IMG/VR virus record: IMGVR_UViG_3300049181_000048
Span: 1 to 47,073 of that record
DNA from: a virus
Direction: 5' to 3' (one strand)
Length of the DNA stretch: 47,073 nucleotides
The number at the start of each line of letters is the position of its first letter. The stretch's first letter is position 1. This document shows, in pieces, positions 6,395 through 47,062 of this stretch. The position numbers were made by a program, and so were the translations under genes. The notes beneath the pieces are model-generated. The model saw only the letters and a program-made list of their open reading frames with translations, was not told where the DNA came from and did not search any database.

Positions 6395-6422
6395 GTGAAA
6401 ACCGGTTTCGGTTTCGTATAAA
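6395..6422 (+). promoter_or_regulatory. candidate promoter upstream of structured element copy 1
   Basis: GTGAAA (6395-6400), a 16-base spacer and TATAAA (6417-6422) resemble a sigma70 promoter pointing into the hairpin element. The -35 is weak (4 of 6). TTTCAAAGGGTGAAA overlaps it and is a loose palindrome of the TTTTCAA/TTTGAAAA type seen in the other phage promoters. Copy 2 of the element lacks an equivalent -10. Confidence 0.3.
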
Positions 6423-6424
6423 AT

Positions 6425-6567
6425 AAACGGAGGTTTCACATGGGTATAGTGTCCCTCTTTTTCTCTCTGTATTTATTTTACTCTTGAGAAGGTATAGCTT
6501 TCTTTTTTCTTATACTAAGAAGGAGATTCATTGACTATATACCCATGTGGAATCACCGTTTTTTTTA
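6425..6567 (+). repeat. structured intergenic element, copy 1 (long hairpin with buried SD and ATG)
   Basis: The left arm 6425-6448 contains AAACGGAGG and CACATGGG and pairs with the right arm 6538-6561. Of 24 pairs, 21 are Watson-Crick, two are G-U and one is a mismatch, followed by eight T residues. The loop carries a conserved block (TTTACTCTTGAGAAGG, then TATAGCTTTC and T6) that is shared exactly with copy 2 at 40527. The left arm contains an SD and ATG that open a 15-residue hydrophobic frame, MGIVSLFFSLYLFYS. The whole gap 6304-6626 holds no other convincing gene. It could be a terminator, a regulatory RNA or a leader-peptide device. Confidence 0.7.
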
Positions 6568-6626
6568 TCCGGAAAGTCCTTAACGATTCCGAGTGCTTTT
6601 TAGGGCAAAGTGAGAGGAGTTCAAAG

Positions 6627-7458: not shown

Positions 7459-7488
7459 TTGGCAGAAGGCGGAAAATGCGGCTAGAAT
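7459..7488 (+). promoter_or_regulatory. sigma70-like promoter inside a 10-bp inverted repeat
   Basis: TTGGCA (7459-7464), an 18-base spacer and TAGAAT (7483-7488) make a plausible promoter in the 160-base gap 7401-7560. GAGCCGATTC at 7417-7426 and its exact reverse complement at 7485-7494 flank it, the right arm covering the end of the -10. This could be an operator-controlled start for the block beginning at 7561. Confidence 0.4.
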
Positions 7489-7560: not shown

Positions 7561-8439
7561 ATGCCTGCGCGAAGTGTAAACGGTCTGCCGAAGGCTCCAA
7601 ACGGTGACGTTGCGGTTGAGGTTTTGCCCAACGGAACGCCTGTCTGGGGCAAGAATGAGAAGGGAAAACCGGTCTGCAATTCCCCTAAAAGATGCGGGCG
7701 CGGAAGATGCAAAATCAGCGTTGGCCTATATCCAAACGGAAGGTGTGAAGACCACGGAGGCAAAGCCGTGAGCGGCGTTGAGGCTCCGGCTTTCAAACAT
7801 GGGAAGCATACCCGATATAGGCATGCACTTTCCGGGAAACTCGCGGAAGCTTATGACCGGATAGCCGAACAAGAGAACTATTTAACGCTTGAGCATGATA
7901 TTCGCTTGACTGCGGCGCGTGTTGAACTCCTGCTTGGCAAATACGGTGAACTTGAGGAAGCGAACCTCTCAACGCTCCGGGAGATTGCCGAACGCGCCGG
8001 TGACGTGCTTTTAGGTGAGTATGACGAAACCGACCTTGAAGAACTGCTCAAGGAGTTCATTGACGCGGTTGAATTGATCGGAGTCCGGAACGAAAAAGGC
8101 AAGGAGTTGGAGCGAACGCAAGAGCATTTGCGGAAGTTGGTTGATACGGAGTCGAAACGTATCACGAACGAACAAGACCAACTTCCGGCGGCAAAGGCAT
8201 GGATTCTCTTTGGTATGCTCCGGGAATCGGTCCGGACTCACGGTTGGGCGTTTATGAAATTCCTTCAGGAGAATCACCCGGAGGTTTTGAAAGACCCGCG
8301 CAGACCGGACATGATGCGAGGAATCGCGGGAGATATTGCCTCCATGCAGTCAACGCGAGCCGGACGCAGGCAGGAGGAACCAGACATAATTGACGCGGAG
8401 GTTGTTCCGGACACGTCCGGCGCGATTGTCCGAAAGTAG
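7561..8439 (+). CDS. HGG-motif protein, candidate small terminase subunit
   Basis: This is a 292-residue protein. The N-terminal 80 residues carry CNSPKRCGRGRC, then a C-x-x-H-G-G motif (CEDHGGKAV) and FKHGKHTRY. Zinc-knuckle segments ending in HGG and a GKxxRY turn are common in phage proteins annotated as small terminase or packaging-associated. The remainder is a long helical region (residues 90-260) with an acidic ELEELLKEF part. The large terminase is 8 kb downstream, which is unusually far, so the packaging role is uncertain. AAGAGGAA directly before the ATG acts as SD. Confidence 0.5.
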   Translation: MPARSVNGLPKAPNGDVAVEVLPNGTPVWGKNEKGKPVCNSPKRCGRGRCKISVGLYPNGRCEDHGGKAVSGVEAPAFKHGKHTRYRHALSGKLAEAYDRIAEQENYLTLEHDIRLTAARVELLLGKYGELEEANLSTLREIAERAGDVLLGEYDETDLEELLKEFIDAVELIGVRNEKGKELERTQEHLRKLVDTESKRITNEQDQLPAAKAWILFGMLRESVRTHGWAFMKFLQENHPEVLKDPRRPDMMRGIAGDIASMQSTRAGRRQEEPDIIDAEVVPDTSGAIVRK

Positions 8440-9349: not shown

Positions 9350-9790
9350 ATGAGAGTTGAACCTAAACCTAGTCTGGTTCTAACCGTTGGTCTCCCTCGT
9401 TCCGGGAAGTCAACATGGGCAATGCAGACCGGTTTCCCGGTTGTCAATCCGGACTCTATCCGGTATGCGCTTCACGGTCAACGGTTCATTCCGGAGGCTG
9501 AGCCTATGGTCTGGGCAATGGCGCGTTACATGGTCCGGAGCCTGTTCATTGCCGGTCACTCTATCGTGATACTTGACGCAACCAATACCAAGGTTCACCG
9601 GCGGGAGGAGTGGCAGGCTCACGAATGGGAAACCTTTTATAAGTGCTTCCCTACTCCGGCGGAGGAGTGTATCCGGCGAGCCTTGGCGCTTGACGATTCG
9701 TATATCATTCCCGTTATCGAACGCATGGCGGCGGAATGGGAAGGACTCACGCAAGAAGAGGAATGGAGGGTTTTCAATGCTTTGGGATAG
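9350..9790 (+). CDS. P-loop kinase, polynucleotide-kinase-like (AAA_33)
   Basis: The ATG at 9350 has GAAAGG upstream; the open frame begins further back at 9314 without an SD. The 146-residue product has a Walker A GLPRSGKST at about residues 14-22 and a strand ending ILDATNT near residue 71, the pattern of the 5'-polynucleotide kinase/zeta-toxin-like AAA_33 group. There is no phosphatase domain and no RNA ligase nearby, so it is kinase-only. It may phosphorylate nucleic acid 5' ends or a small substrate. Confidence 0.75.
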   Translation: MRVEPKPSLVLTVGLPRSGKSTWAMQTGFPVVNPDSIRYALHGQRFIPEAEPMVWAMARYMVRSLFIAGHSIVILDATNTKVHRREEWQAHEWETFYKCFPTPAEECIRRALALDDSYIIPVIERMAAEWEGLTQEEEWRVFNALG

Positions 9791-10430
9791 ATGCGGCGCG
9801 GCTTCACCGGATGATAACGCGCTAACCTGCATACTTGAAGACGGTCACAACGGAGACCACGCAAGCGGAACCGGCGCAACCTGGGAGAAGGCTCCGGAGC
9901 CGGATACCCGGAGTCAGTTTCAACGGTTGATTGACCTCCGCTCCGGAGCCGACATGCCCAAATGGGCAAAGGACGTGTTCACGGCGCGGCATACCGTCAA
10001 CTTATCCTTTTGGGACCGGCTCAAGGTGTTGTTCGGTTGGAGCCTTGAGGTTCATACGGCAACGGCGCTTGAGTTCCCGATTGGAAGGGAAGAGACTCGC
10101 TCCTGTGTTCACCTGTTCAAGCCTGCATGGTTGGTTAGGTGTCACCGGAGACACGGCGACATGCAAGCCTTTGCCGGTGAGGTTTTCTCCCAGGAACCGG
10201 CGCGAAAGAACCATGTCTGTATCTGCGTTGTTCACGGTCCGGTATACGGGATTGACATGGCGGATTGGAGACCGTTTCAAACCGGACCGTTGGCCGGTAA
10301 GAAGGCGCAGAGAAATTGCCGGTTCTGCGCCGGTGAGGGTATGATTGATCTTGACACGGCGGCGGCTATCCGGCGAGAACAGGAATCAACCGAAAGGCTG
10401 ATAGAGGAGTCAGAGGAACATGGCATCTAA
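9777..10430 (+). CDS. Cys/His-rich hypothetical protein with zinc-knuckle motif
   Basis: The ATG at 9777, inside the end of the kinase gene, has GGAGGG just upstream, giving 217 residues. The N-terminus carries C-x13-C-ILEDGHNGDH, one of six C-x5-H-x3-[H/C] motifs in this genome. The middle has FWDRLKVLFGWSLEV, and the C-terminal part has further Cys/His pairs (HVCICVVHG, NCRFCAGEG) that could form a second zinc site. The tail is an acidic helix. Function unknown; two structural zinc sites are inferred. Confidence 0.6.
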   Translation: MLWDRCGAASPDDNALTCILEDGHNGDHASGTGATWEKAPEPDTRSQFQRLIDLRSGADMPKWAKDVFTARHTVNLSFWDRLKVLFGWSLEVHTATALEFPIGREETRSCVHLFKPAWLVRCHRRHGDMQAFAGEVFSQEPARKNHVCICVVHGPVYGIDMADWRPFQTGPLAGKKAQRNCRFCAGEGMIDLDTAAAIRREQESTERLIEESEEHGI

Positions 10431-10728
10431 GACGGTGAAGGAGTTAGAAGCAGAGGTTGAGCGGCTCACGGTTCAAAACCGGGAACTCGCGGCGCAGGTT
10501 GAAAGGCTCGCTCAACCGGTCTGGGTTGACCAAGGCGCGGAGGAGTTTGCTCAGTATCTGTATGACCGCATGCCGGGTTTGAAAGTGTCAACCTTCCTCG
10601 GAGGTCCGAGTCTTTCGGCTCCGGTGAAGGTAATGACCGGCAAGCGGTCTTCAATGCTCATGCACATGAGCACAACGGACGGCAGGGTATACGTGGTTGA
10701 AGTATACCGCACAGGAGAGAAACCATGA
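10420..10728 (+). CDS. coiled-coil hypothetical protein
   Basis: This 102-residue product starts at an ATG overlapping the previous gene by 11 bases, with GAGGAA upstream. Residues 4-33 form a leucine-heptad coiled coil (VKELEAEVERLTVQ), likely to dimerise. The remaining 65 residues look like an alpha/beta domain (FAQYLYDRMPGLKVS, VYVVEVYRTGE). It is joined to the next gene by an ATGA overlap. No family recognised. Confidence 0.65.
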   Translation: MASKTVKELEAEVERLTVQNRELAAQVERLAQPVWVDQGAEEFAQYLYDRMPGLKVSTFLGGPSLSAPVKVMTGKRSSMLMHMSTTDGRVYVVEVYRTGEKP

Positions 10729-12011
10729 GACTCACGGCAGACATGCCAGAAGGCCGGAACTATTACGTGTATTTCAACGGTGAACGTGAACAACGCGCCG
10801 TTGCCGCAGACGACTCGGAAGGTTGGGTTGACGTGTTCAAGAACGGGAACGCGGGTTTATTTGAGACGGAGCCGCCCCTTGAACGCCTTACCGGTCTGGT
10901 GCAGTTCCTCCGGGTTGGTCTTGAAGACCGGGTTGAGCCGCTCCGGAACTCCATGATTGAAACGTTTCAACGGCTCAAGGTTCTCCCGTTGGAGTTGTCC
11001 GAAAGCCGGAGGGCACAGGTTGAGAAAGACTTCACGGCGCTTGCCGTTCACGTCTTGAGCCTTCCCGCTTGGACTTCTCCGGAGACTCCCAGGTATACGG
11101 AGGCGGAACTTGACGAATTTGTTGAACACGTCAAAACCAATCTTCCGGCTCCTTCTCAAGTTGGGTTTGATCCTGCCGAACCGGGCAACTTCCGGACGGT
11201 TCTCGTTGTGGGAGGGCGCAACATTGGGCGGCGGCTTCTCGCGGCTCATGTTATCGCGCAGTTCCTCCGCTCCAATCCGGAGGCGCTCACCCTCAACGCG
11301 CCGGTTCCTATGGTTGGCGAACCGGTTGAAGATGACTGCCGGACAAAGGCGCGTGAGTTCCTCGCGGCTCACCCGGTTGCCGCAACGTTCATGGATGAAG
11401 ACCAACTCACGAACGTATTCCGCAGTATGGGCATGCGTTCCATGAACGTTACGGTTCCGGGTGAGTTGATTCCTAAGGGACTGTTTGACGAACTGCGCCG
11501 GAATCTGGCAACGGGAAAACTTGAATTCATGCCGAACGCGGAACCTTGGGAAGAGGTGAACTATTCCGAGTATGAGCGGCTGAATCACCGTCTGCCCGAA
11601 GGCCGGAAGATCGACTCCCCAACTATACGGAACCTGCGGGCGCGGCAAAGAGCAACACAAGGGCGATACCGCGAAACGTTTGAACCGCACCGTTGCCGGA
11701 TGACGGATAACGGCGGCTTGCCGAGTGGTCTGCGTTGTATCTTCTCCGTTGGTCATGCGGGAGACTGCTCCTTTGAACAGGTGAGCGAGGAGACCACGGA
11801 AGAAGCCTCTCCGGAGGATGATATAGAGGAGCGGCGGCGGCTCGTCTCTCGTTGTGGTGAGCCGGAACCCTACGGTGAAACCGACTGCACCATGCCGAGT
11901 GGTCATGCCGGTCCCCATTTGGCCGGTGAGGGTGAAACCGCTCGCGTCTGGCCGCAACATTTCAAAACCTCGTTTCCGGCTTATCTCAACCCATACAGTG
12001 AAGAAGAGTGA
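10725..12011 (+). CDS. large hypothetical protein with two C-terminal zinc-knuckle motifs
   Basis: This is a 428-residue protein. The first about 65 residues (YYVYFNGE...DSEGWVDVF...LTGLVQFLR) resemble the whole 77-residue protein encoded next, so this domain is duplicated. The middle is helical with VLVVGGRNIGRRLLAAH near residue 160, which looks like a nucleotide-binding turn but lacks a full P-loop. The C-terminal third carries CIFSVGHAGDC and CTMPSGHAGPH, both C-x5-H-x3-[H/C], each with an upstream cysteine. Function unknown. Confidence 0.65.
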   Translation: MRLTADMPEGRNYYVYFNGEREQRAVAADDSEGWVDVFKNGNAGLFETEPPLERLTGLVQFLRVGLEDRVEPLRNSMIETFQRLKVLPLELSESRRAQVEKDFTALAVHVLSLPAWTSPETPRYTEAELDEFVEHVKTNLPAPSQVGFDPAEPGNFRTVLVVGGRNIGRRLLAAHVIAQFLRSNPEALTLNAPVPMVGEPVEDDCRTKAREFLAAHPVAATFMDEDQLTNVFRSMGMRSMNVTVPGELIPKGLFDELRRNLATGKLEFMPNAEPWEEVNYSEYERLNHRLPEGRKIDSPTIRNLRARQRATQGRYRETFEPHRCRMTDNGGLPSGLRCIFSVGHAGDCSFEQVSEETTEEASPEDDIEERRRLVSRCGEPEPYGETDCTMPSGHAGPHLAGEGETARVWPQHFKTSFPAYLNPYSEEE

Positions 12012-14614: not shown

Positions 14615-15244
14615 CTAAACCTTCCGATTTACTCCGGGGAACCCTTCGTTGAGCCGTCGGAGTTCTTCTTCAGGAATCCAACGCGCATGTTGGCTCATTT
14701 TACTAAAACCTATTTCAACTCCGGTCTGGCGGCAGAAGCGGAACTCTCCCAGGACTCCGTTAAAGGACAGAACGAGCCATGTCTTGGTTGTGCGGTTCAA
14801 CCATGCGGCTTGCGTTCCGTCATTGTTGCCCCTCCCGCGAACGTATGTCTTGGTGGAAGGCTTACCGTAAGAAGTGACCGTTTCCGGCGCGTTCACTCGG
14901 ATACACCAATAGGACTGAGAGAAGTCCGGAGTGAATTGAGTTGCTTCTTCGGCAGTGAGCGGGATGAAAACCCGGTTATGGTCTCCCATGTGAACGGTCT
15001 GGCGCGTTGGCGGGAAGTCATTAGCGCGGCAAGTGTCAACCGACATGGGCAGTATGTCTCTTGTGACCATTTCTCCCATGACGTATTCAACGCCCTCCGA
15101 GTAGTTATTCAAGTATTCAAGCCGTATAGTTGCGGCTCGCTCACTAAAGAACAGTTCCCGGATAGTTTCAAACCGTTCCCGTCCTCCCGCGTTACAACTC
15201 GGAAGATACCAGACAACGCTGATAGTGTAAATCTTGGTTCCCAT
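14615..15244 (-). CDS. hypothetical protein on the minus strand (second of pair)
   Basis: Read on the minus strand, the ATG at 15244 follows AAGGA 9 bases upstream. The 209-residue protein has beta-rich N-terminal segments (YTISVVWYLPS), an aromatic middle (FTPDFSQSYWCIRV) and TKTWLVLSFNGVLGEF. It has a balanced composition and a proper SD; the long plus-strand frame over the same bases lacks one. No family recognised. With the next gene it forms the only minus-strand unit in the window, typical of a moron-like cassette. Confidence 0.65.
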   Translation of the reverse strand: MGTKIYTISVVWYLPSCNAGGRERFETIRELFFSERAATIRLEYLNNYSEGVEYVMGEMVTRDILPMSVDTCRANDFPPTRQTVHMGDHNRVFIPLTAEEATQFTPDFSQSYWCIRVNAPETVTSYGKPSTKTYVRGRGNNDGTQAAWLNRTTKTWLVLSFNGVLGEFRFCRQTGVEIGFSKMSQHARWIPEEELRRLNEGFPGVNRKV

Positions 15245-15304
15245 GTCATTGATCCTTTTGAAAAGCGGAAGGCGGTTGTGAGCCGCCCTCCTGGGTTGCG
15301 TGGT

Positions 15305-15910
15305 TTAGTGGTTTGCTTTCCACCAAGTATTAAACTGTTCAACCGCAGATTTTTTAGTTGTTCCGTTGAACGAAGGTGTCATTCGGTCATTGCAGGTTAT
15401 TTCCCATTCATAACCCGGAGTTGCGCCGGTCCGATTGTTTACCAGATTTGCGGTATGGGTTCCGTCAAGGTCGGCAACATAATACCCGGCGCAGGATTTT
15501 TCAAATGTGGGAGGTGTTACCGGAGCCGGAGGCAGTTTCTCGGAACCGGGCGCGTTGCTCAACGGCTCACCCTCAAGGCGGAACGTGGTCAACCCGTCCT
15601 CCGCCGGAGTGGTTTCTTCTTCAGAAGCCGGAGCCTCTTCAAAGAGCGGCAAGCCGTCTGCGTGAACGCGGCGGAGAAACGTTTCACAGGCGTCAACTAC
15701 GTTCATGGCGTCTTGTCGGATGTTCTCAACCCAACCGGTGAGTTCCGAAGAAGGAACAATGAAACCGTCACCGTCAAACAGAACGTGATTGAGACCGGGG
15801 CAGTTGAACCGGGAAGCGACAAGACAGGTTATCGCGGCAGACTTGTCGGCAAACTTGAAGGTGCAAACCGGAGTGTTCGGGTTGGATGTGAAGGATACAA
15901 CGGTATACAT
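15305..15910 (-). CDS. hypothetical protein on the minus strand (first of pair)
   Basis: The start is the minus-strand ATG at 15910, preceded by AGGAGACC, the same SD form used by many plus-strand genes here. The product is 201 residues: an N-terminal domain (TVVSFTSNPNTPVCTFKF), a central Glu/Pro-rich linker and a C-terminal domain ending EQFNTWWKANH with YEWEITCN. No family recognised. Its promoter at 15937-15974 has the start motif CGTAAGCAGTT found in the 41-46 kb region, so it is regulated with those genes. Confidence 0.7.
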   Translation of the reverse strand: MYTVVSFTSNPNTPVCTFKFADKSAAITCLVASRFNCPGLNHVLFDGDGFIVPSSELTGWVENIRQDAMNVVDACETFLRRVHADGLPLFEEAPASEEETTPAEDGLTTFRLEGEPLSNAPGSEKLPPAPVTPPTFEKSCAGYYVADLDGTHTANLVNNRTGATPGYEWEITCNDRMTPSFNGTTKKSAVEQFNTWWKANH

Positions 15911-15936
15911 GGTTTTGGTCTCCTCTTGAAGTGGTC

Positions 15937-15974
15937 AACTGCTTACGTGCTTAGTATAGGGAAAGGATTGAAAG
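15937..15974 (-). promoter_or_regulatory. phage-type promoter for minus-strand pair
   Basis: On the minus strand the order is CTTTCAA (15968-15974), nine bases, TATACT (15953-15958), then CGTAAGCAGTT (15937-15947). The layout matches the plus-strand promoters at 40721, 41421, 43963 and 46194, including the CGTAAGCAGTT block at the expected start point. Confidence 0.65.
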
Positions 15975-15976
15975 CC

Positions 15977-16207
15977 GTGAATACTCCAAAAGATGGAAAA
16001 TCAAAGGTTGACGTTTCCAAGATCATGGTTCCGGCTCCGGAGTATGAACCTCCGGCGCTTGACGAGTGGTTGCCGGGAAACCGGGTTGAAGCCGTAAGGG
16101 ATGAAGACGATTTCACAACGATTGAATTCGTCACCGGTCACCGGTTGGAGATACTTAAAGGCTCAATGGTCATTATTCATCCGTCTCATGAGACGTTTCC
16201 CAACTAA
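15977..16207 (+). CDS. small hypothetical protein
   Basis: GTG at 15977 is chosen, with AAAGGA 9 bases upstream; a TTG at 15968 in the same frame is the alternative. The product is 76 residues, with a charged N-terminus, a Pro-rich segment (VPAPEYEPPALDEWLPG) and a beta hairpin-like end (TTIEFVTGHRLEILKGSMVIIH). It is divergent from the minus-strand pair and lies 11 bases before the terminase gene, so it may be a packaging accessory. No family recognised. Confidence 0.6.
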   Translation: MNTPKDGKSKVDVSKIMVPAPEYEPPALDEWLPGNRVEAVRDEDDFTTIEFVTGHRLEILKGSMVIIHPSHETFPN

Positions 16208-40498: not shown

Positions 40499-40526
40499 AT
40501 GCATGGCTCCAAACCCGAAACAAAAT

Positions 40527-40652
40527 AAACGGAGGTTTCACATGGGTATAGGGTTCCTATTTTCTTTACTCTTGAGAAGGTATAGCTTTCTTTTTTCTTA
40601 GATCATGAGTAAGGCAGAGACACTATACCCATGTGAAACCTCCGTTTTTATT
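40527..40652 (+). repeat. structured intergenic element, copy 2 (perfect 25-bp stem)
   Basis: Left arm 40527-40551 and right arm 40623-40647 are exact reverse complements (25 of 25), followed by five T residues. The loop of 71 bases contains CTTTACTC pairing with GAGTAAGG, and an apical AGAAGGT/GCTTTCT hairpin with T6. The left arm includes GGAGG and ATG of a 19-residue hydrophobic frame, MGIGFLFSLLLRRYSFLFS. About 80 bases upstream, AGAGTTTCGTGCCT is also shared with copy 1. The loop blocks are kept but the peptide frames differ, so the RNA seems to be the conserved part. Confidence 0.7.
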
Positions 40653-40720
40653 ACGAACCGGGAAACAGGCTCCGGAGCGGTTCGCAGCAGAGACTTTGAA
40701 AGCTTTCGTAAAACATCCAT

Positions 40721-40760
40721 CTAAAGTATGATACAAGGTTTTCAACTGCTGAGCCATACT
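40721..40760 (+). promoter_or_regulatory. phage-type promoter A
   Basis: CTAAAGTATGAT (40721-40732), GGTTTTCAA (40737-40745), nine bases, then CATACT (40755-40760). The first two blocks are shared with the promoter at 46194. The CGTAAGCAGTT start motif is missing here. It drives the gene at 40800. Confidence 0.55.
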
Positions 40761-40799: not shown

Positions 40800-40982
40800 A
40801 TGGGAATCGATGACTTCACCCTTTTCAATACCCGCGAGGAAGCGGAAGCCATTGCTAAGACCAACCGCGAGGAAGACAACGGCATGGCGCTTCCTGCGTG
40901 GTCTTATACCGTGAAGCCTTACGGCTCATACTTCATCATTGAAGTTGCGAACGAAACCGGTGAGGTTCTCGGTAACCTGTAA
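40800..40982 (+). CDS. small hypothetical protein
   Basis: ATG at 40800 follows AGGAGACCAAC; a longer frame from 40728 lies inside the promoter and is rejected. The 60 residues comprise a helix (NTREEAEAIAKTNREED) followed by a beta hairpin (PAWSYTVKPYGSYFIIEVANE). It is the first product of the small-gene region. No family recognised. Confidence 0.6.
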   Translation: MGIDDFTLFNTREEAEAIAKTNREEDNGMALPAWSYTVKPYGSYFIIEVANETGEVLGNL

Positions 40983-40989
40983 TCAACTC

Positions 40990-41012
40990 GGAGCCGGTGA
41001 GGAATCGGCTCC
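40990..41012 (+). repeat. GGAGCCG intergenic hairpin
   Basis: GGAGCCG (40990-40996) pairs with CGGCTCC (41006-41012) with a 9-base loop. It ends upstream of TTCAGGAGAT, the SD of the next gene. It is one of several similar hairpins between small genes. Confidence 0.6.
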
Positions 41013-41039: not shown

Positions 41040-41411
41040 ATGAATCGGCAGGAGTTCACTGAGGCAGTTGGACGCAATCCGGAGGTTGACTCTGAGGATT
41101 GGCAGACCATTCAAACGGTATACAACTTTCACCCGGCGATTCCGGAGGTGGGAGGGAAGGAGAAGATTGCGAGTCTCTTCAACCTGGGAGGCATGGGACT
41201 GCTCCGGGATATGCTCGCAACGGCGCAGGAGGGGCAGGCGCTTGAGGAGAACATTCACGCGAACCGTGAGGCACTCCGGCAGGCTCAACGCGCCTATCTG
41301 GATTCCCGGTTGGCATACCGTGAATGGAAGAACCGGAAAGGGTATCCGCCGGTCAAGGAGGAGCCGTCTGCGGAGTTCCTCCTTCAGGCAGAGATTCGGG
41401 AACTCGGATAG
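41040..41411 (+). CDS. hypothetical protein, helical
   Basis: This 123-residue protein has CAGGAGATAGGATCA upstream as SD. The first half has a short helix (FTEAVGRNPEVDSEDW), then HPAIPEVGGKEKIASLF, then a long helix (ANREALRQAQRAYLDSRLAYREW) likely to be a coiled coil. The last part is acidic and helical. No family recognised. Confidence 0.6.
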   Translation: MNRQEFTEAVGRNPEVDSEDWQTIQTVYNFHPAIPEVGGKEKIASLFNLGGMGLLRDMLATAQEGQALEENIHANREALRQAQRAYLDSRLAYREWKNRKGYPPVKEEPSAEFLLQAEIRELG

Positions 41412-41420
41412 TCCGGAGCG

Positions 41421-41496
41421 GCAGGTTTTCAAACCTCCTACTATCGGATGATAAGGCACCTTTGAAAACCTGCTATAATCTCTAACGTAAGCAGTT
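41421..41496 (+). promoter_or_regulatory. phage-type promoter B with 13-bp inverted repeat
   Basis: GCAGGTTTTCAAA (41421-41433) and TTTGAAAACCTGC (41461-41473) are exact complements. TGCTATAAT is an extended -10 (TATAAT 41474-41479), followed by CGTAAGCAGTT (41486-41496). The right arm ends at the -10, so the palindrome can act as an operator covering the promoter. The loop CCTACTATCGGATGATAAG is identical to that of promoter C. Confidence 0.7.
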
Positions 41497-41521
41497 CACT
41501 ACTACGAAGGAGACCACGAAC

Positions 41522-41803
41522 ATGAGCAACGTTGAACTCAACTGGAAAGAAACCCTCGCGGTTGGTAAGATTGGCCGGACCGGTGTTGAGACTCACGCAA
41601 TCACCTGTGAGGTTGCCGTAAAGAACGAAGGCATGCCTTGGCAGTCAACTGAAGTCCGGAAGGCTCATACCCTCTGCCAAAGCGGGCGCATTGGATACCG
41701 GACTCCCCATTCCATGCGGTTCAACGTTCCCGTGAACTCGGAAACGGTCACCTGTGAACACTGCCGTTCCTTCGGTTGCGTTCCGGCGGTTGAAAGCAAG
41801 TAG
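41522..41803 (+). CDS. small Cys-containing hypothetical protein
   Basis: The start at 41522 follows GGAGACCACGAAC, a leader identical in three genes. The 93-residue product is beta-rich, with cysteines in HAITCEVAV, HTLCQSG and TCEHCRSFGC; the last could be part of a zinc site. No family recognised. Confidence 0.6.
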   Translation: MSNVELNWKETLAVGKIGRTGVETHAITCEVAVKNEGMPWQSTEVRKAHTLCQSGRIGYRTPHSMRFNVPVNSETVTCEHCRSFGCVPAVESK

Positions 41804-41812
41804 TAACGCTCC

Positions 41813-41835
41813 GGAGCCGGAACCTCACCGGCTCC
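41813..41835 (+). repeat. GGAGCCGG intergenic hairpin
   Basis: GGAGCCGG (41813-41820) pairs with CCGGCTCC (41828-41835), 7-base loop. CTTCATCTTCTTCAGGA follows, a tract also present at 44276. It belongs to the GGAGCCG hairpin family. Confidence 0.65.
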
Positions 41836-41869
41836 TTCATCTTCTTCAGGAAAGCGGGAGACCACGAAC

Positions 41870-42424
41870 ATGAGCAGGATTGACATGCGGAACCAAAGCC
41901 TCACCGAACTTCATGCCCGGTTGGGCGCAATGATTGAAGAGAACAATCGGCGCGGTTGGCAGGAACGGAACGAACTTCCGGCCTATATCCAAATCAACCA
42001 AGAAGGCCGGAGGAGTCCGCATTATTTCCCGGTTGCCTTCGTGTCCTCCGCTCAACTCGGTTTCTCGGATAACGAAGGCGAGCCGCTCAAATCGGCATGT
42101 GTGATTGAAACCCATGAGGCTCGCGGAATTAAACCCTACCGCGAACGGAGCCGGAAGATTGCCGAGAAAAGCCGCCGGAGAATTCTCACCGGAATCAAAC
42201 CGGTCATTCATGAACTTGACCGGAGCAAACCGGACGATTCGCCTATCACCTGGGTTGACTTTGGGCAACATGGTCGGACTGCCGCGAAACTCTTTGTTGA
42301 GTGGTTGAAGAAGGAAACGGCATGGACTTCTCCGAAACGGAGCCGTAACGCGCCATACGTCTGGCTTTACGGCGCGGATAAAGCTACTCTTCAGGCGCTT
42401 GTTGACGAGTTCATGGCGCTTTGA
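41870..42424 (+). CDS. hypothetical protein
   Basis: This 184-residue protein starts at 41870 after GGGAGACCACGAAC. It has a helical N-terminus (LTELHARLGAMIEENNRRGW), beta segments (YFPVAFVSSAQLGFSD), a basic stretch (RERSRKIAEKSRRRI) and a C-terminal domain (APYVWLYGADKATLQAL). The basic middle suggests nucleic-acid contact. No family recognised. Confidence 0.6.
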   Translation: MSRIDMRNQSLTELHARLGAMIEENNRRGWQERNELPAYIQINQEGRRSPHYFPVAFVSSAQLGFSDNEGEPLKSACVIETHEARGIKPYRERSRKIAEKSRRRILTGIKPVIHELDRSKPDDSPITWVDFGQHGRTAAKLFVEWLKKETAWTSPKRSRNAPYVWLYGADKATLQALVDEFMAL

Positions 42425-42476
42425 TCTTCTTCAGGAGAGGGAGGCTCCGGCTTCTCTCTCCCCTTGAGGCTTTACA

Positions 42477-42707
42477 ATGGACGCAGAACACGCGCAGGAA
42501 GGCGAGAAGGCCGCTCCGGATGAATTGCCGGAGTTGGAGCCGCAAGCACTGGAAACGGAAGCCAGACGGCTTGCAGAGGAGTTCCGGAAGCTTTGGCATG
42601 CTCCGGGTTGGGAAGATAAGCCTTGGCAGGCATTTATCAATCAAGCCGTGAGGAACCTCACCAAGTCTGCATGGCTCCGGCGAGCCGGAACCCAGGTGAG
42701 GAAGTGA
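42477..42707 (+). CDS. small acidic helical protein
   Basis: The ATG at 42477 follows CTTGAGGCTTTACA, a moderate SD. The 76 residues begin very acidic (AEHAQEGEKAAPDELPE) and become an amphipathic helix with EFRKLWHAPGWEDKPWQAF. It overlaps the next gene by GTGA. No family recognised. Confidence 0.55.
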   Translation: MDAEHAQEGEKAAPDELPELEPQALETEARRLAEEFRKLWHAPGWEDKPWQAFINQAVRNLTKSAWLRRAGTQVRK

Positions 42708-42898
42708 CAAAGGGATTCAAGTTCCTCACCTGTCCGGACTGCGGCAAGAAAGGTGTTTACTTCGCCATGCGTTCTCATGGTGAAGACAACTTCTCATGTC
42801 GTTACTGTGATTTTTACTTCTTCACTCTTTCGGAATCTCCGAGGGACACGAGAGAGGAAGAACGGCTCAAAGCTTCAAACCCAGGTTGTGAACTCTGA
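42704..42898 (+). CDS. zinc-ribbon protein
   Basis: The GTG at 42704 lies in a GTGA overlap and follows AGGTGAGGAA, giving 64 residues. It contains TCPDCGKKG and, 21 residues later, SCRYCDFYFF, two CxxC knuckles as in small phage zinc ribbons. The upstream frame to 42623 is rejected as it runs inside another gene. Possible nucleic-acid or polymerase binder. Confidence 0.6.
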   Translation: MTKGFKFLTCPDCGKKGVYFAMRSHGEDNFSCRYCDFYFFTLSESPRDTREEERLKASNPGCEL

Positions 42899-42916
42899 AG
42901 GAAAGGAGGTGAGGAA

Positions 42917-43093
42917 ATGAAGACAAATGCGGTTCTGTCCGTCCATACGGCGGCAGAGTTGAGGAAGGTTGCCGGAGGTCTGGCGTCTCTCCTTATCACG
43001 AGCGAGAAGGTTCTTGGTGAAGATGACAAGAAGGAGATTCAAGCCGCTCAAGCTATTCTCCTGAAGGTGTCTAACCGCGTTGAGAAGGGGTAG
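42917..43093 (+). CDS. small hypothetical protein
   Basis: ATG at 42917 follows a 12-base near-perfect SD, GAAAGGAGGTGA. The 58-residue product is a single helical hairpin: VLSVHTAAELRKVAGGLASLL and DDKKEIQAAQAILLKVSNRV. The very strong SD implies abundant expression. The alanine/lysine layout resembles small dimeric DNA-binding or antitoxin-like proteins, but this is only a similarity in style. Confidence 0.65.
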   Translation: MKTNAVLSVHTAAELRKVAGGLASLLITSEKVLGEDDKKEIQAAQAILLKVSNRVEKG

Positions 43094-43100
43094 AAACAGG

Positions 43101-43610
43101 ATGAAACCAGAGACACGGAACGCGGTTCAAGCGTTCTTGCAGGTTTGTATGATTGAACAGGTTCTTGAGAAGGCGAAGGAAAACCTTGCTCAAGCTGTTG
43201 CCGGAGCCGCTCCGGAGGATGAACGGGAATACTTCGCAGTCACCGAAGGTATTCAACGGTGTTTCTCCTTTGATCCGCGAGCCAAAGGCGAGATTTGCGG
43301 TATGGTTGTTCCCGGAGTCTCACCGGCGGTTGCGTCAACTGTTGCCGAGTTCTGCGGCTTTGGCAACGCGCCCATTTGCCTTTTGACAGAGGGGCACGAA
43401 GGAATCCATGTCAACGCGATAGGCGAAACTTGGGAGGAGTCAACGCAACGGGTTGAAACCCGAACCTGCGACTCCCTCCAATCCGCTTCAAGTGGTATCC
43501 GTTGCTCACGTCCGAAGGATCATAAGGGACCATGTTCCGGCGGCGGTTTGACTTGGCGGAACCGGTCCGTTGCGCCTCCTCCGGCGCGGAGGGTGAACCG
43601 TCATGCCTAA
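43101..43610 (+). CDS. hypothetical protein with two zinc-knuckle motifs
   Basis: ATG at 43101 is chosen over the TTG at 43080, with AAGGGG upstream. The 169-residue protein has an N-terminal helix, then CLLTEGHEGIH and CSRPKDHKGPC, both C-x5-H-x3-[H/C] with an upstream Cys partner. The C-terminal is basic (ARRVNRHA). It overlaps the next gene by eight bases. The motif is repeated in four proteins here, likely as a small metal site. Confidence 0.6.
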   Translation: MKPETRNAVQAFLQVCMIEQVLEKAKENLAQAVAGAAPEDEREYFAVTEGIQRCFSFDPRAKGEICGMVVPGVSPAVASTVAEFCGFGNAPICLLTEGHEGIHVNAIGETWEESTQRVETRTCDSLQSASSGIRCSRPKDHKGPCSGGGLTWRNRSVAPPPARRVNRHA

Positions 43611-43932
43611 GGTTGAACTTGAACCGGGTGAGCAAGTCACCGTAACGTTCAAAGACTCAGACGGTGAGATTACTGTTGAGTTCCGGGAAGATGCTTTGCT
43701 AGTGACGGCGGATTTACCGGACAGTTCCGGACGGGAAGGGGTCATATACGAGGAGCGTTTCACCGTCACTCAATGCAAACTTCATAAGCGTTGCATACTG
43801 GCAGACGAGCATGAAGGCGGCTGTATCGCGGCGGCAAGAACCGGCAGAACTCCGGCGGCTCCGGAACCGGTTGACTATTCCCAGGACCCGGAAGCCGTTG
43901 GAGAAATGAACCGGCGGCATTTGCTGGGATAG
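43603..43932 (+). CDS. hypothetical protein with zinc-knuckle motif
   Basis: This 109-residue protein has a beta-rich first half (EQVTVTFKDSDGEITVEF, LLVTADLP) and CILADEHEGGC with a cysteine before it (QCKLHKRC). This again fits C-x5-H-x3-[H/C]. The C-terminal part is Pro-rich and disordered. Start overlaps the previous gene. Function unknown. Confidence 0.6.
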   Translation: MPKVELEPGEQVTVTFKDSDGEITVEFREDALLVTADLPDSSGREGVIYEERFTVTQCKLHKRCILADEHEGGCIAAARTGRTPAAPEPVDYSQDPEAVGEMNRRHLLG

Positions 43933-43962
43933 GCTCCGGCGCATAATCGAATAACGGCAGGC

Positions 43963-44042
43963 ATAGGCCGGTTTTCAAACCTCCTACTATCGGATGATAA
44001 GTAAGGTTTGAAAACCGGCCTATACTTATGACGTGAGCAGTT
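43963..44042 (+). promoter_or_regulatory. phage-type promoter C with 19-bp inverted repeat overlapping the -10
   Basis: ATAGGCCGGTTTTCAAACC (43963-43981) is the exact complement of GGTTTGAAAACCGGCCTAT (44005-44023), which includes the first bases of the -10 TATACT (44021-44026). CGTGAGCAGTT follows at 44032-44042. The 23-base loop shares CCTACTATCGGATGATAAG with promoter B. Confidence 0.75.
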
Positions 44043-44069
44043 AGGCTCACCCAGACGAGGAGACCAACC

Positions 44070-44243
44070 ATGAAGACCAAGAGACCGGTGACGGCGGCAG
44101 TAACTCCGGAATACGTTGAATATTGCAAGGCTCACGGCAAGAGCGTGACGGCAATGAAGGAGTATGACCGGAACCGGTTTCCGGGAGGGCACATGGCAGG
44201 GTTCATCATTTGGCGGATACACGGAACCAAAGTCAGCAAGTAG
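44070..44243 (+). CDS. small basic hypothetical protein
   Basis: ATG at 44070 follows AGGAGACCAACC. The 57-residue product is basic (KTKRPVTAAVTPEYVEYC, KSVTAMKEYDRNRF) with a C-terminal hydrophobic GGHMAGFIIWRIHG. It might bind DNA or a host protein; no family recognised. It is the first gene behind promoter C. Confidence 0.6.
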   Translation: MKTKRPVTAAVTPEYVEYCKAHGKSVTAMKEYDRNRFPGGHMAGFIIWRIHGTKVSK

Positions 44244-44252
44244 AAACGCTCC

Positions 44253-44275
44253 GGAGCCGTCAAGACGGCGGCTCC
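44253..44275 (+). repeat. GGAGCCG intergenic hairpin
   Basis: GGAGCCG (44253-44259) pairs with CGGCTCC (44269-44275), with GCCGT/ACGGC as an alternative inner pairing. TTCATCTTCAGGAGATAGGG follows and holds the next SD. Confidence 0.6.
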
Positions 44276-44305
44276 TTCATCTTCAGGAGATAGGGAGAAG
44301 GAATC

Positions 44306-44488
44306 ATGGAACGCATGTTGAAAGTCATGGATACGCTTTGCAAGCTTGGTCTCACCGTCGACTCTGCGGCGGCTATAACGCGAGCCTGCATGGGGCAGAT
44401 TTTGCACTCTACCACTGCGCCGGAAGCGTTGGCGGCGGAGGTCTTGGAATGGGCGAAACCCAGGAGCATGGTTGAATGGGCAAAGTGA
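44306..44488 (+). CDS. small helical hypothetical protein
   Basis: The 60-residue frame starts after AGGGAGAAGGAATC. The sequence is a run of helices (LKVMDTLCKLGLTVDSAAAITRAC). It overlaps the next gene by 13 bases. No family recognised. Confidence 0.55.
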   Translation: MERMLKVMDTLCKLGLTVDSAAAITRACMGQILHSTTAPEALAAEVLEWAKPRSMVEWAK

Positions 44489-44841
44489 AGAAGGAACAAC
44501 CGGCAATGACGCTCACCCAGGTTGAGCGGCAAATTGAGATTTTCAAAGAGGCACTTTCGGAAGCAGACGGCAGGAGCCGACACCGAGTTGCAAAGAAGGT
44601 GATTGAACTCGTGAAGGAGCGGAACGCCCTCCTCAACGCGGAAGGGAAGTCTGCCGGACATGCGGAGTTCATCGGACCGTTTGAGTACTTCTTTCATCCG
44701 AACGGTGACCTCCTACGAGCGGACCGGACAAACCCGCTTGACGTATGGGGATACCGGAGCGGCGGCAGATTTGAATCGACTCCGGTTATGGCTGAGCGTA
44801 TCCTGCAAGCGGCTCGTGAGACTTTCAAAGACTACGAATAA
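44476..44841 (+). CDS. hypothetical protein with coiled coil
   Basis: The start at 44476 lies inside the previous gene, with GGAGCATGG upstream. The 121-residue protein has a coiled coil (LTQVERQIEIFKEALSEADG, VIELVKERNALLNAEG), then an aromatic beta segment (FEYFFHPNGDLLRADR). No family recognised. Confidence 0.55.
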   Translation: MGKVKKEQPAMTLTQVERQIEIFKEALSEADGRSRHRVAKKVIELVKERNALLNAEGKSAGHAEFIGPFEYFFHPNGDLLRADRTNPLDVWGYRSGGRFESTPVMAERILQAARETFKDYE

Positions 44842-44849
44842 ACCTCATA

Positions 44850-44888
44850 CTAAAGTAGTAGGCAGAAGCTTTGAAAAGCGGCTATAAT
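44850..44888 (+). promoter_or_regulatory. phage-type promoter D
   Basis: CTAAAGTAGTAG (44850-44861), then AAGCTTTGAAAAGC, five bases, TATAAT (44883-44888). It is less conserved than the others, with CGTTAGGC in place of the CGTAAGCAGT start motif. Confidence 0.55.
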
Positions 44889-44939
44889 CTTAATCGTTAG
44901 GCAATCAAGCCTAACCAACTCCTGAAAGGAACCGCTCCA

Positions 44940-45260
44940 ATGAAAACCGTTTCCGTCTTCATCCCCACTGTTGAAAATATTGCCGCTCTCGCGGTTGGTT
45001 CGCAGATTCCTAACTGCTTCGGTAAGCTTGCGGAAGTGGTTGAGGTTCGATACAACGGAACGGACGTGAACGGGAAGGCGTTCGTTGGGTTTGCGACTCG
45101 GTTCGGACCGACTTCAACGATAAGCGGCTCCATGAAGGAAGGCGAACTGTATCGGTCATCCAACCTGAGCCGATATTTCACCTCCAACGAACTGCGAGCC
45201 ATTGAAGCAGACATGAACGCGAAGGGTGAAACCGAACGAGAGATAGAAGTTCCGGAGTGA
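44940..45260 (+). CDS. hypothetical protein
   Basis: This 106-residue protein starts after CTGAAAGGAACCGCTCCA. It has beta-rich N-terminal segments (TVSVFIPTVENIAAL, SQIPNCFGKLAEVVEVRYNG) and an acidic helical C-terminus (ELRAIEADMNAKGETERE). No family recognised. It is the only gene right behind promoter D. Confidence 0.6.
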   Translation: MKTVSVFIPTVENIAALAVGSQIPNCFGKLAEVVEVRYNGTDVNGKAFVGFATRFGPTSTISGSMKEGELYRSSNLSRYFTSNELRAIEADMNAKGETEREIEVPE

Positions 45261-45355
45261 GCCGAAAGGCTCCGAAACGCGCCAACGCTCCGGTTCATAG
45301 TCCGGAGGTGAAAGAAAGCGGGTGACGGAGTTCACTTCAAGAGGAGACCACGCGC

Positions 45356-45754
45356 ATGAAGAAACTGACAAAGGCACAACTTAGGACCCGTGACGAACAC
45401 GCATGCAACATTCGGAGTAAGGGTGAAGTACTCGCGGAAGCCGTTCAAGCTTTTAACGAGAAGTTGGAGGCGGCATGGGTTGACGTAGAAGCCGCGAGGG
45501 ATGAACTCAACGAGGAGATAGACAACGCGAATCAGTTCCGTTCTGAAGTCTGGGAGGCGGCGGATTCTTACGCTTCGGACCGGTCTGAGCGTTGGCAGGA
45601 TGGAGACGCAGGACAGGCATATCAGGAGTTCATGGGGCAGTGGGAAGAGGAACTTGAACAGGTTGAGGTTGAACGTCCGGATGACGTGAGCGAGCCGGAA
45701 GGTTGGGAAGCCGCCGCAGACAAGCTTGAGGAATACCCGGAGTCGGTGAACTAA
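45356..45754 (+). CDS. acidic coiled-coil hypothetical protein
   Basis: The ATG at 45356 follows AGAGGAGACCACGCGC. The 132-residue product is one long acidic helix region (EKLEAAWVDVEAARDELNEEIDNA) with an aromatic WEAADSYASDRSERWQDG and a strongly acidic tail. The leader (45301-45350) matches that before the gene at 46823. An acidic coiled coil of this kind could mimic DNA or bind a host partner; this is speculation. Confidence 0.6.
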   Translation: MKKLTKAQLRTRDEHACNIRSKGEVLAEAVQAFNEKLEAAWVDVEAARDELNEEIDNANQFRSEVWEAADSYASDRSERWQDGDAGQAYQEFMGQWEEELEQVEVERPDDVSEPEGWEAAADKLEEYPESVN

Positions 45755-45768
45755 CCCAGGTATGACCC

Positions 45769-45798
45769 GGAGCCGGAACCTCACCGGGAACCGGCTCC
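45769..45798 (+). repeat. GGAGCCGG intergenic hairpin
   Basis: GGAGCCGG (45769-45776) pairs with CCGGCTCC (45791-45798), 14-base loop. CTTCAGGAGAT follows with the next SD. Confidence 0.6.
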
Positions 45799-45819
45799 TT
45801 CTCTTCAGGAGATATGAAC

Positions 45820-46197
45820 ATGGACCTTGAACAGTTGATAAGCCGTATTCAAGAAATGGGTTGCGACTATGCCCAGACTGCCGCAGATACTACGCTCACG
45901 CGGAAAGAGCGGCAGGAAGGCCGGACAGGAGGGCAGGTTGTTGAGCAAGTTCTTGAACTGCTAGGAGAGTTTCAAGACGCGCAACTCCTTCAGGCTCACC
46001 CTCACCAGACTTCAACTCCGTTCCGGTATCGGCTCAACTCCCACTTTCCCGGAGCCGGTTCCTCCGTTCTCGGTGAGACGTGTTCAACTATCTTCCGTGA
46101 CCGGGAATCGGCAGAGGCTTCTTTCAAGCGTCAAGCGGAACTTTCGGCTCAGCCAACGTTGGAACTATGGGAGGAGCGGCTTCTCAAGTCCAACTAA
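45820..46197 (+). CDS. hypothetical protein
   Basis: AGGAGA (45808-45813) directly abuts an ATG at 45814, too close to use, so the ATG at 45820 with 6-base spacing is chosen; 125 residues. It has an N-terminal helix (LEQLISRIQEMGCDYAQTAADT), a middle (EQVLELLGEFQDAQLL) and TSTPFRYRLNSHFPG with a charged C-terminus. No family recognised. Confidence 0.6.
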   Translation: MDLEQLISRIQEMGCDYAQTAADTTLTRKERQEGRTGGQVVEQVLELLGEFQDAQLLQAHPHQTSTPFRYRLNSHFPGAGSSVLGETCSTIFRDRESAEASFKRQAELSAQPTLELWEERLLKSN

Positions 46198-46247
46198 AGT
46201 ATGATGCGGAGGTTTTCAAAACCGACCATACTTAAACCGTAAGCAGT
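46194..46247 (+). promoter_or_regulatory. phage-type promoter E with central palindrome
   Basis: CTAAAGTATGAT (46194-46205), the palindrome GGTTTTCAAAACC (46211-46223), three bases, CATACT (46227-46232) and CGTAAGCAGT (46238-46247). It begins within the last codon of the previous gene. Confidence 0.65.
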
Positions 46248-46283
46248 CGAGACCGGCAAAGCCGGAGAGAGGAACCTAACCCG

Positions 46284-46460
46284 ATGAACGCCCGTGATAT
46301 TAGAGAAGCCCTCCGTGACGGAGTTCACGTCATTGCCCGGTTTCCGGAAGCCGCGAGCGGTTACCGTGTCTTTGACGCCCGTGAGAAGAACGGGATTCTT
46401 GAGGTTAAGGTTTCCTCCGGTTGGCGCGTTGCGAACGGCGCAACCATATATGAGGCTTGA
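46284..46460 (+). CDS. small hypothetical protein
   Basis: ATG at 46284 follows AGAGAGGAACCTAACCCG. The 58-residue product has a helix (ARDIREALRDGVHVIA) and beta strands (YRVFDAREKNGILEVKVSSG). It is the first gene behind promoter E. The composition looks genuine, with no recognised family. Confidence 0.6.
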   Translation: MNARDIREALRDGVHVIARFPEAASGYRVFDAREKNGILEVKVSSGWRVANGATIYEA

Positions 46461-46533
46461 GCCTCTTTCACTCTTCACCCGGAGCCGTCCTAAACCAACG
46501 GCTTCCGGCTCACTCAAACAGGAGACCAGACAC

Positions 46534-46725
46534 ATGTATTGCCAAGACATGAACAACAATGAGGAGTTCCGAGCATGGGCAGTTAAACGGCTCAAGCAGA
46601 GTGACAACGTTGAGGCTCGCAACGATAACCGGCGCAAGGTTGTTATTCTCAAGAATGTCAGTGAGGAACGAGCAGAGGAACTCCGGAAACTTTATCATTA
46701 TTCCTTCTTTGTTCTCGCAGAGTGA
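46534..46725 (+). CDS. small hypothetical protein
   Basis: ATG at 46534 follows AGGAGACCAGACAC; the longer frame from 46294 overlaps another gene and is rejected. The 63 residues are helical and basic (FRAWAVKRLKQSDNVEARND), with VVILKNVSEERAEELRKL and an aromatic end (YHYSFFVLAE). No family recognised. Confidence 0.6.
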   Translation: MYCQDMNNNEEFRAWAVKRLKQSDNVEARNDNRRKVVILKNVSEERAEELRKLYHYSFFVLAE

Positions 46726-46822
46726 GCCTCACGGCTCCGGTAACCCAACTTAGACCGGTCACAAGTCCGGCGGAAGAATTGGCGAGTGACGGAGAGTTTA
46801 CTTCAGAGGAGGAGCGGACAGA

Positions 46823-47032
46823 ATGAACACGGCAACGGTGAGCAATATCGCGGGCGCAGGCTTCTGGATTGAACCGGAAGCCAAGAGTATGAAGGTTGGA
46901 GTCGTTAAGAACCATGACTCTTCTCAAGTTGAAGCGGAGTTGAAGAGGCTCCGGGAACGGCTCCGGCTCGCAGGTTTCAAGGCACGGCTCACCGGCAAGC
47001 ATGTTTTCACCCTCCTGCGTGTTTGGAAATAG
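46823..47032 (+). CDS. small hypothetical protein
   Basis: ATG at 46823 follows AGAGGAGGAGCGGACAGA. The 69-residue product has a beta segment (AGAGFWIEPEAKSMKVGVV), then a helix (AELKRLRERLRLAGF) and ends with a hydrophobic basic stretch (HVFTLLRVWK). Its leader is like that of the gene at 45356. It is the last gene before the promoter at the window end. Confidence 0.6.
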   Translation: MNTATVSNIAGAGFWIEPEAKSMKVGVVKNHDSSQVEAELKRLRERLRLAGFKARLTGKHVFTLLRVWK

Positions 47033-47062
47033 TTGACTTTCCCGAAACTTTCGGCTCATAAT
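47033..47062 (+). promoter_or_regulatory. sigma70-like promoter with operator at the window end
   Basis: TTGACT (47033-47038), an 18-base spacer and CATAAT (47057-47062) form the best -35/-10 pair seen. The perfect palindrome CCGAAACTTTCGG (47042-47054, central C) lies in the spacer. In a circular genome it would transcribe the first gene about 40 bases on, with GAGGGAAG as its SD. Confidence 0.75.

Follow-up and report, generated by a model that had tools for sequence, protein, structure and literature searches.

What switches on the small orphan genes at the right end of a phage that has no near relative, and do their promoters answer to one regulator? The question is raised by a virus record of 47,073 bp (IMGVR_UViG_3300049181_000048), which was analysed whole and is called the window here. 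An earlier note had placed promoters at 40721, 41421, 43963, 44850 and 46194 on the plus strand and at 15937 on the minus strand, each with a shared spacer element before its -10 box, and had joined them into one regulon that needs a phage regulator or a modified polymerase. All six (sites A to E, and F on the minus strand) are present at these positions and lie directly upstream of genes. They are a real family, far above chance. The six promoters are built on one plan, with one palindrome in place of the -35 box, another beside the -10 box and a shared RNA start, and a single regulator probably switches on their small viral genes as a set.

Six sites form one promoter family

A genome-wide search for TTTTCAA or TTTGAAAA followed by N5-9 and [CT]ATA[AC]T gave 6 matches in the window, whereas 200 dinucleotide shuffles averaged 0.01 and never held more than 1. 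These matches are the five plus-strand sites and one minus-strand match within site E, the latter arising because the spacer element is symmetric. Equally frequent chance matches inside genes were not found, as 0 pattern matches fall in genes. The shared element holds as first described at the plus-strand sites, while site F carries CTTTCAA and not TTTTCAA. A start motif after the -10 box had also been proposed, and CGTRAGCAGT is indeed found 3-7 nt beyond the -10 boxes at 41474, 44021, 46227 and, on the minus strand, 15958. The combination of a -10 box and CGTRAGCAGT occurs 4 times, none in a gene, versus 0 in 200 shuffles. Site A lacks the start motif CGTAAGCAGTT and site D has CGTTAGGCAAT only; a common start-region sequence is present in four or five sites.

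An nhmmer model made from the six sites scores 34-65 bits on them. The next best match in the window, at 12.8 bits, is the reverse complement of site C, and scores peak at 7.2 bits in 20 shuffles and at 12.3 bits in 329 kb of other viral DNA. Neither the rest of the window nor the 329 kb of control DNA nor 813 kb from distant relatives holds another site of comparable score. When each site was left out in turn, A (E 1.3e-3), B (4.5e-10), C (1e-13), D (1.6e-3) and E (1.6e-9) were recovered, and the minus-strand site F was recovered weakly (E 0.12). Because no relative carries the promoters, the alignment columns come from paralogous sites within a single record, six in number with B and C near duplicates, and not from independent species data. 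The view that the sites make up one family and one regulon is well supported: left-out sites are recovered, the geometry is fixed, the sites are confined to gene starts, and two canonical promoters of the same record lack the elements.

Ordinary -35 boxes had been described as missing throughout. This is the case at A, B, C and E, where the best TTGACA match at 16-18 nt reaches at most 2/6 positions; D and F hold -35-like hexamers with 4/6 matches (TAGGCA at 18 and TTCACG at 17, respectively), a level attained by 11% of random positions. TTGACA-like boxes are therefore at chance level in the six promoters. An extended -10 (TGC) is found at site B only, the other five being without one.

Two dyads precede the -10 box

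Upstream of the spacer element lies an imperfect 16-bp dyad, U (TCMTACTWWAGTATGA), which the earlier reading had missed and which is present in all six sites (Table 1). U begins 38-39 nt upstream of the -10 box in every site, which places its centre near -43; with the first base of the -10 box taken as -12, it spans about -51 to -36. The statistical weight for U is carried by a comparison with 600 null sets, in which the most conserved upstream block of five independent sites (TCCATCTAA / TCCTACTAT / TCATACTAA / TCCAACTAA / TCCATCTTT) reaches 13.6 bits against a null maximum of 10.2-10.8. A pattern of U plus the -10 box finds exactly the six sites versus 0.005 expected, a count that shows specificity and is not an unbiased test, since the pattern was drawn from these same sites. 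When the whole record was scanned with the U matrix, each site's own 20 bp, read as the reverse complement, took ranks 6 and 8-11 in D, E, A, C and B. U is self-complementary at 5/8 positions in B/C, D and E (P 0.025 each), at 4/8 in A and at 3/8 in F, where it is poor enough for 59 windows to score equally well in leave-one-out.

The TTTTCAA/TTTGAAAA element is itself a second dyad, O (GGTTTNNAAACC), at about -22 to -25. Its centre lies 9.5-12.5 bp upstream of the -10 box and its orientation may be either way, so that U is placed more rigidly than O relative to the -10 box. O lies in the promoter spacer of all six sites and thus overlaps the core promoter. At B and C another O copy, inverted, stands 35 bp further upstream and turns each of these sites into a long-armed inverted repeat; their upstream regions fold with z scores of -4.2 and -9.4. 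Distal O copies were rejected as a general feature, being significant at B and C and at none of the other sites. On the minus strand, a -10-like box is found at the O of site E. At site F, O overlaps the ribosome site of the gene at 15977, which is read rightward and lies upstream of the terminase.

Hairpins of 6-7 bp stand at the predicted RNA 5′ end of C (44031-44056, GTGAGC/GCTCAC) and D (44895-44915, GTTAGGC/GCCTAAC), different in sequence and alike in form; at the start motif of A, B, E and F no such leader hairpin is present.

Table 1. Promoter features at sites A to F, with positions in the window
Site	Feature	Position	Strand	Remarks
A	U TCCATCTAAAGTATGA	40716..40731	+	
A	O GGTTTTCAACTG	40737..40748	+	right half poor
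A	-10 CATACT	40755..40760	+	heads genes 40800-40982, 41040-41411
B	distal second O copy	41424..41435	+	35 bp upstream of proximal O; P about 0.003
B	U TCCTACTATCGGATGA	41436..41451	+	
B	O CCTTTGAAAACC	41459..41470	+	
B	-10 TATAAT	41474..41479	+	preceded by TGC; heads 41522-43932
B	start motif CGTAAGCAGTT	41486..41496	+	
C	distal second O copy	43970..43981	+	P about 0.004
C	U	43982..43997	+	
C	O GGTTTGAAAACC	44005..44016	+	
C	-10 TATACT	44021..44026	+	heads 44070-44841
C	start motif CGTGAGCAGTT	44032..44042	+	5′ arm of 6-bp leader hairpin
D	U TCATACTAAAGTAGTA	44845..44860	+	flanking 20-mer is the most symmetric copy
D	O GCTTTGAAAAGC	44868..44879	+	
D	-10 TATAAT	44883..44888	+	heads 44940-46197
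D	degenerate start motif CGTTAGGCAAT	44895..44905	+	5′ arm of 7-bp leader hairpin
E	U TCCAACTAAAGTATGA	46189..46204	+	overlaps end of gene 45820-46197
E	O GGTTTTCAAAAC	46211..46222	+	
E	-10 CATACT	46227..46232	+	heads 46284-47032
E	start motif CGTAAGCAGTC	46238..46248	+	
F	weak U TCCATCTTTTGGAGTA	15982..15997	-	
F	O GGCTTTCAATCC	15965..15976	-	
F	-10 TATACT	15953..15958	-	heads leftward 15910-15305, 15244-14615
F	start motif CGTAAGCAGTT	15937..15947	-	

Genes served and neighbouring elements

Sites A-E head runs of small orphan genes in a right-end cluster at 40.8-47.0 kb. Site F points left and heads the sole leftward gene pair, whose members have good ribosome sites; codon scoring and the promoter favour this pair over the overlapping plus-strand ORF 14687-16207, and this 506-aa ORF, opposite the pair within 14615-16207, is probably spurious. 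For the 201-aa protein of operon F no fold is predicted (pLDDT 36).

Two intergenic promoters of canonical form, TTGGCA-18-TAGAAT at 7459-7488 and TTGACT-18-CATAAT at 47033-47062 (the very end of the record), are without U and O; promoters of the phage thus fall into at least two classes. The promoter at 47033-47062 holds a different palindrome, CCGAAACTTTCGG, in its spacer, and would drive the genes from position 23 if the genome were circular. Adjoining paralogous small proteins are encoded at 404-667 and 664-909 (E 2e-5) and are candidates for an early-expressed function; the protein of 664-909 is predicted to form four helices (pLDDT 87.5) and has no significant fold match.

Other repeated elements were observed in the window. 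A long hairpin element occurs in two copies 34 kb apart (6412-6574 and 40522-40652), which come after the primase operon and the late operon. Its outer stem is 33 nt; the second copy is 91% paired (z -9.6) and the first has z -4.9. Hidden in the stem are an ATG and a ribosome-site-like GGAGG, on both strands in the second copy; there a hydrophobic reading frame of 19 codons begins on the plus strand. These elements are possibly terminators, or something else. Between right-cluster genes that have no promoter of their own (40990-41012, 41813-41835, 44253-44275 and 45767-45801) lies a conserved hairpin, GGAGCCG...CGGCTCC, with a TTCATCTTCAGGAG-like stretch behind it. The CTCCT of the hairpin can also pair with the AGGAG of the ribosome site that follows, an arrangement that may couple or gate translation. 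Rfam gave no match.

Relatives and the search for a regulator

Among the proteins encoded are a primase, a DNA methyltransferase, a terminase with 37% identity to Salinibacter phage terminases and a tail protein with DUF2460, as in Rhodobacter phages and gene transfer agents. The window holds about three times the expected number of CCGG sites (718 versus 246), in a phage that has a DNA methyltransferase gene. A Cys-His motif, approximately C-x(n)-C-x(3-5)-GH-x-G-x-H/C, recurs in the proteins of 9777-10430, 10725-12011, 43101-43610 and 43603-43932, which are otherwise unrelated to each other.

No near relative was found in any collection tried. Neither the right part of the window (megablast against phages) nor 11 right-cluster proteins (tblastn) had a match. 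In IMG/VR, scans with the portal, the primase, TerL and the 184-aa gene each led to no relative, and a genome-contig scan with the primase gave nothing. Searches for relatives with the promoter pattern returned zero, or chance matches in coding DNA only. Through TerL alignment with a Salinibacter phage, 80 loci were reached (TerL 40-53%); the promoter was not found in them (best E 1.4-2.7, 8-9 bits), early regions being mostly missing there, and the two of these loci that were inspected for promoter repeats, L109 and L032, held none comparable.

The Pfam, PHROG and family searches found no regulator. Searched in six frames, the record gave no match to the Mor/C family (PF08765, at E up to 10), the MotA DNA-binding domain (PF09158), sigma70 region 4 or HTH_3. 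There was no match to a tyrosine or serine integrase in the record, and a simple helix-turn-helix scan did no better than shuffles. A sub-threshold AsiA match (15.5 bits, cut-off 25) was obtained in ORF 7561-8439, in the inner part of a 292-aa protein. Readings that invoke a sigma factor, a T4-type system or a lysogeny repressor are lowered, as far as known protein families go, because sigma region 4, MotA, HTH_3 and integrase were not found.

Possible modes of control

We give a probability near even to the reading in which a dimeric activator bound at U replaces the -35 contacts, the promoters forming a coordinated set read by host RNA polymerase of the sigma70 type. A protein that touches polymerase needs fixed spacing, whereas a blocker or a lone binder does not, which would account for a rigid U and a floating O; the rigid U, taken with the missing -35 box, speaks for an activator that binds there as a dimer. 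Such a protein, small and DNA-binding, would stand in for the -35 contacts and recruit polymerase, so that the leftward pair and the small genes of the right end would be turned on together. The protein may be made by the phage from a canonical promoter (7459 or 47033) or borrowed from the host. Because its distance to the -10 box varies by 3 bp and its orientation flips, O is more likely the site of another, symmetric binder, perhaps a negative one. The start-region motif probably adjusts promoter escape or the 5′ end of the mRNA. Against an activator at U, the extended -10 of B could work without one, U is imperfect and poor in F, and the regulator was not found in the record. The earlier claim that a phage regulator is needed is in this respect plausible, and sharpened by the location of U at a class II activator position, but the gene for such a regulator was not found.

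A repressor regulon, in which O and perhaps U are dispersed operators through which one phage repressor shuts the promoters, is in our estimate rather unlikely. It is favoured by the place of O, since a protein bound in the spacer would block polymerase, by variation in orientation and exact distance that a blocker could tolerate, and by the second inverted O upstream of B and C. The C1 repressor of phage P1 acts at scattered operators. In SPbeta, dispersed repressor sites lie in promoter regions of unknown small genes (PMC10516654). However, a missing -35 box would be unusual in promoters that need only blocking, U is the more rigidly placed of the two dyads, and neither an integrase nor an HTH_3 repressor was found. 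It is quite unlikely, though the most far-reaching prospect, that the sites form a two-dyad promoter class (U at -43, O at about -22, and a common transcribed start) run by a phage protein pair of an undescribed DNA-binding family, one member replacing the -35 contact and the other gating the spacer as an on-off switch for host-takeover genes.

Rigid spacing from U to the -10 box would also be expected if a phage sigma factor or polymerase-modifying protein (AsiA/MotA-like, or an alternative sigma) read U as an extended -35 box, and T4 middle promoters do keep the -10 box and replace the -35 box (PMC2988021). We consider this improbable, even with the AsiA match, which is weak and confined to an inner segment of its protein: neither sigma region 4 nor MotA was matched, and U is dyad-like and begins 38-39 nt upstream, whereas the MotA box is short, asymmetric and 12 bp from the -10 box. 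The modified polymerase of the earlier note is likewise less likely, because the -10 box is ordinary and a sigma region 4 match is absent. There is a slim chance that a host transcription factor binds U or O, with the genes turned on at once by cell state; that no recognisable phage regulator was found points this way, and small orphan genes at a genome end would often be immediate early. It is scarcely credible that the conserved block reflects mainly nucleic-acid structure or bidirectional promoters. The folding of the B and C upstream regions, the C and D leader hairpins and the minus-strand box at site E are consistent with it, but the distal arm is significant in B and C only and four of the sites have no leader hairpin.

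If the reading with an activator at U is true, the switch of an orphan phage's small-gene cluster is defined, and the two short dyads are ready bait for finding a phage regulator.

Comparison with known systems

Repeated sites within one phage are also known as the stoperators of Cluster A mycobacteriophages (PMC9283540). Stoperators are described as asymmetric, bound by a monomeric repressor, spread genome-wide and able to stop elongation, whereas the dyads described here are promoter-linked and occur at six places only. In SPbeta, too, promoter regions of small orphan genes share a short element, SPBRE, to which the MrpR repressor binds; it differs in being a 15-bp element of a temperate phage with a recombinase-like repressor, and an integrase-family match is absent here. 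T4 middle promoters, under MotA and AsiA, resemble the present set in having an element in place of the -35 box, upstream of an ordinary -10 box, at many promoters. Unlike U, the MotA box is asymmetric and lies 12 ± 1 bp upstream of the -10 box; the six-site alignment holds no TGCTT element, a MotA match is absent and the AsiA match is sub-threshold.

Closest in layout is phage Mu. Its Pm promoter has a -10 box, no -35 box and a 16-bp dyad centred at -43.5, where a Mor dimer replaces the -35 contact, and the Mor-related C protein serves four late promoters (PMC4390567, PMC4287176). The promoters described here likewise have a -10 box without a -35 box, a 16-bp dyad at about -51 to -36 in its stead and several copies in one phage; as in Mu, an extended -10 is absent, in five of the six sites. 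Unlike Mu, the record holds no Mor/C family protein, and its promoters add the spacer dyad O and a common start-region motif. With no Mor/C protein in the record, the set is Mu-like in its layout and proposed working and not in membership. If this reading is true, a Mu-like use of a dyad for the -35 box without a Mu-type activator would point to convergent design.
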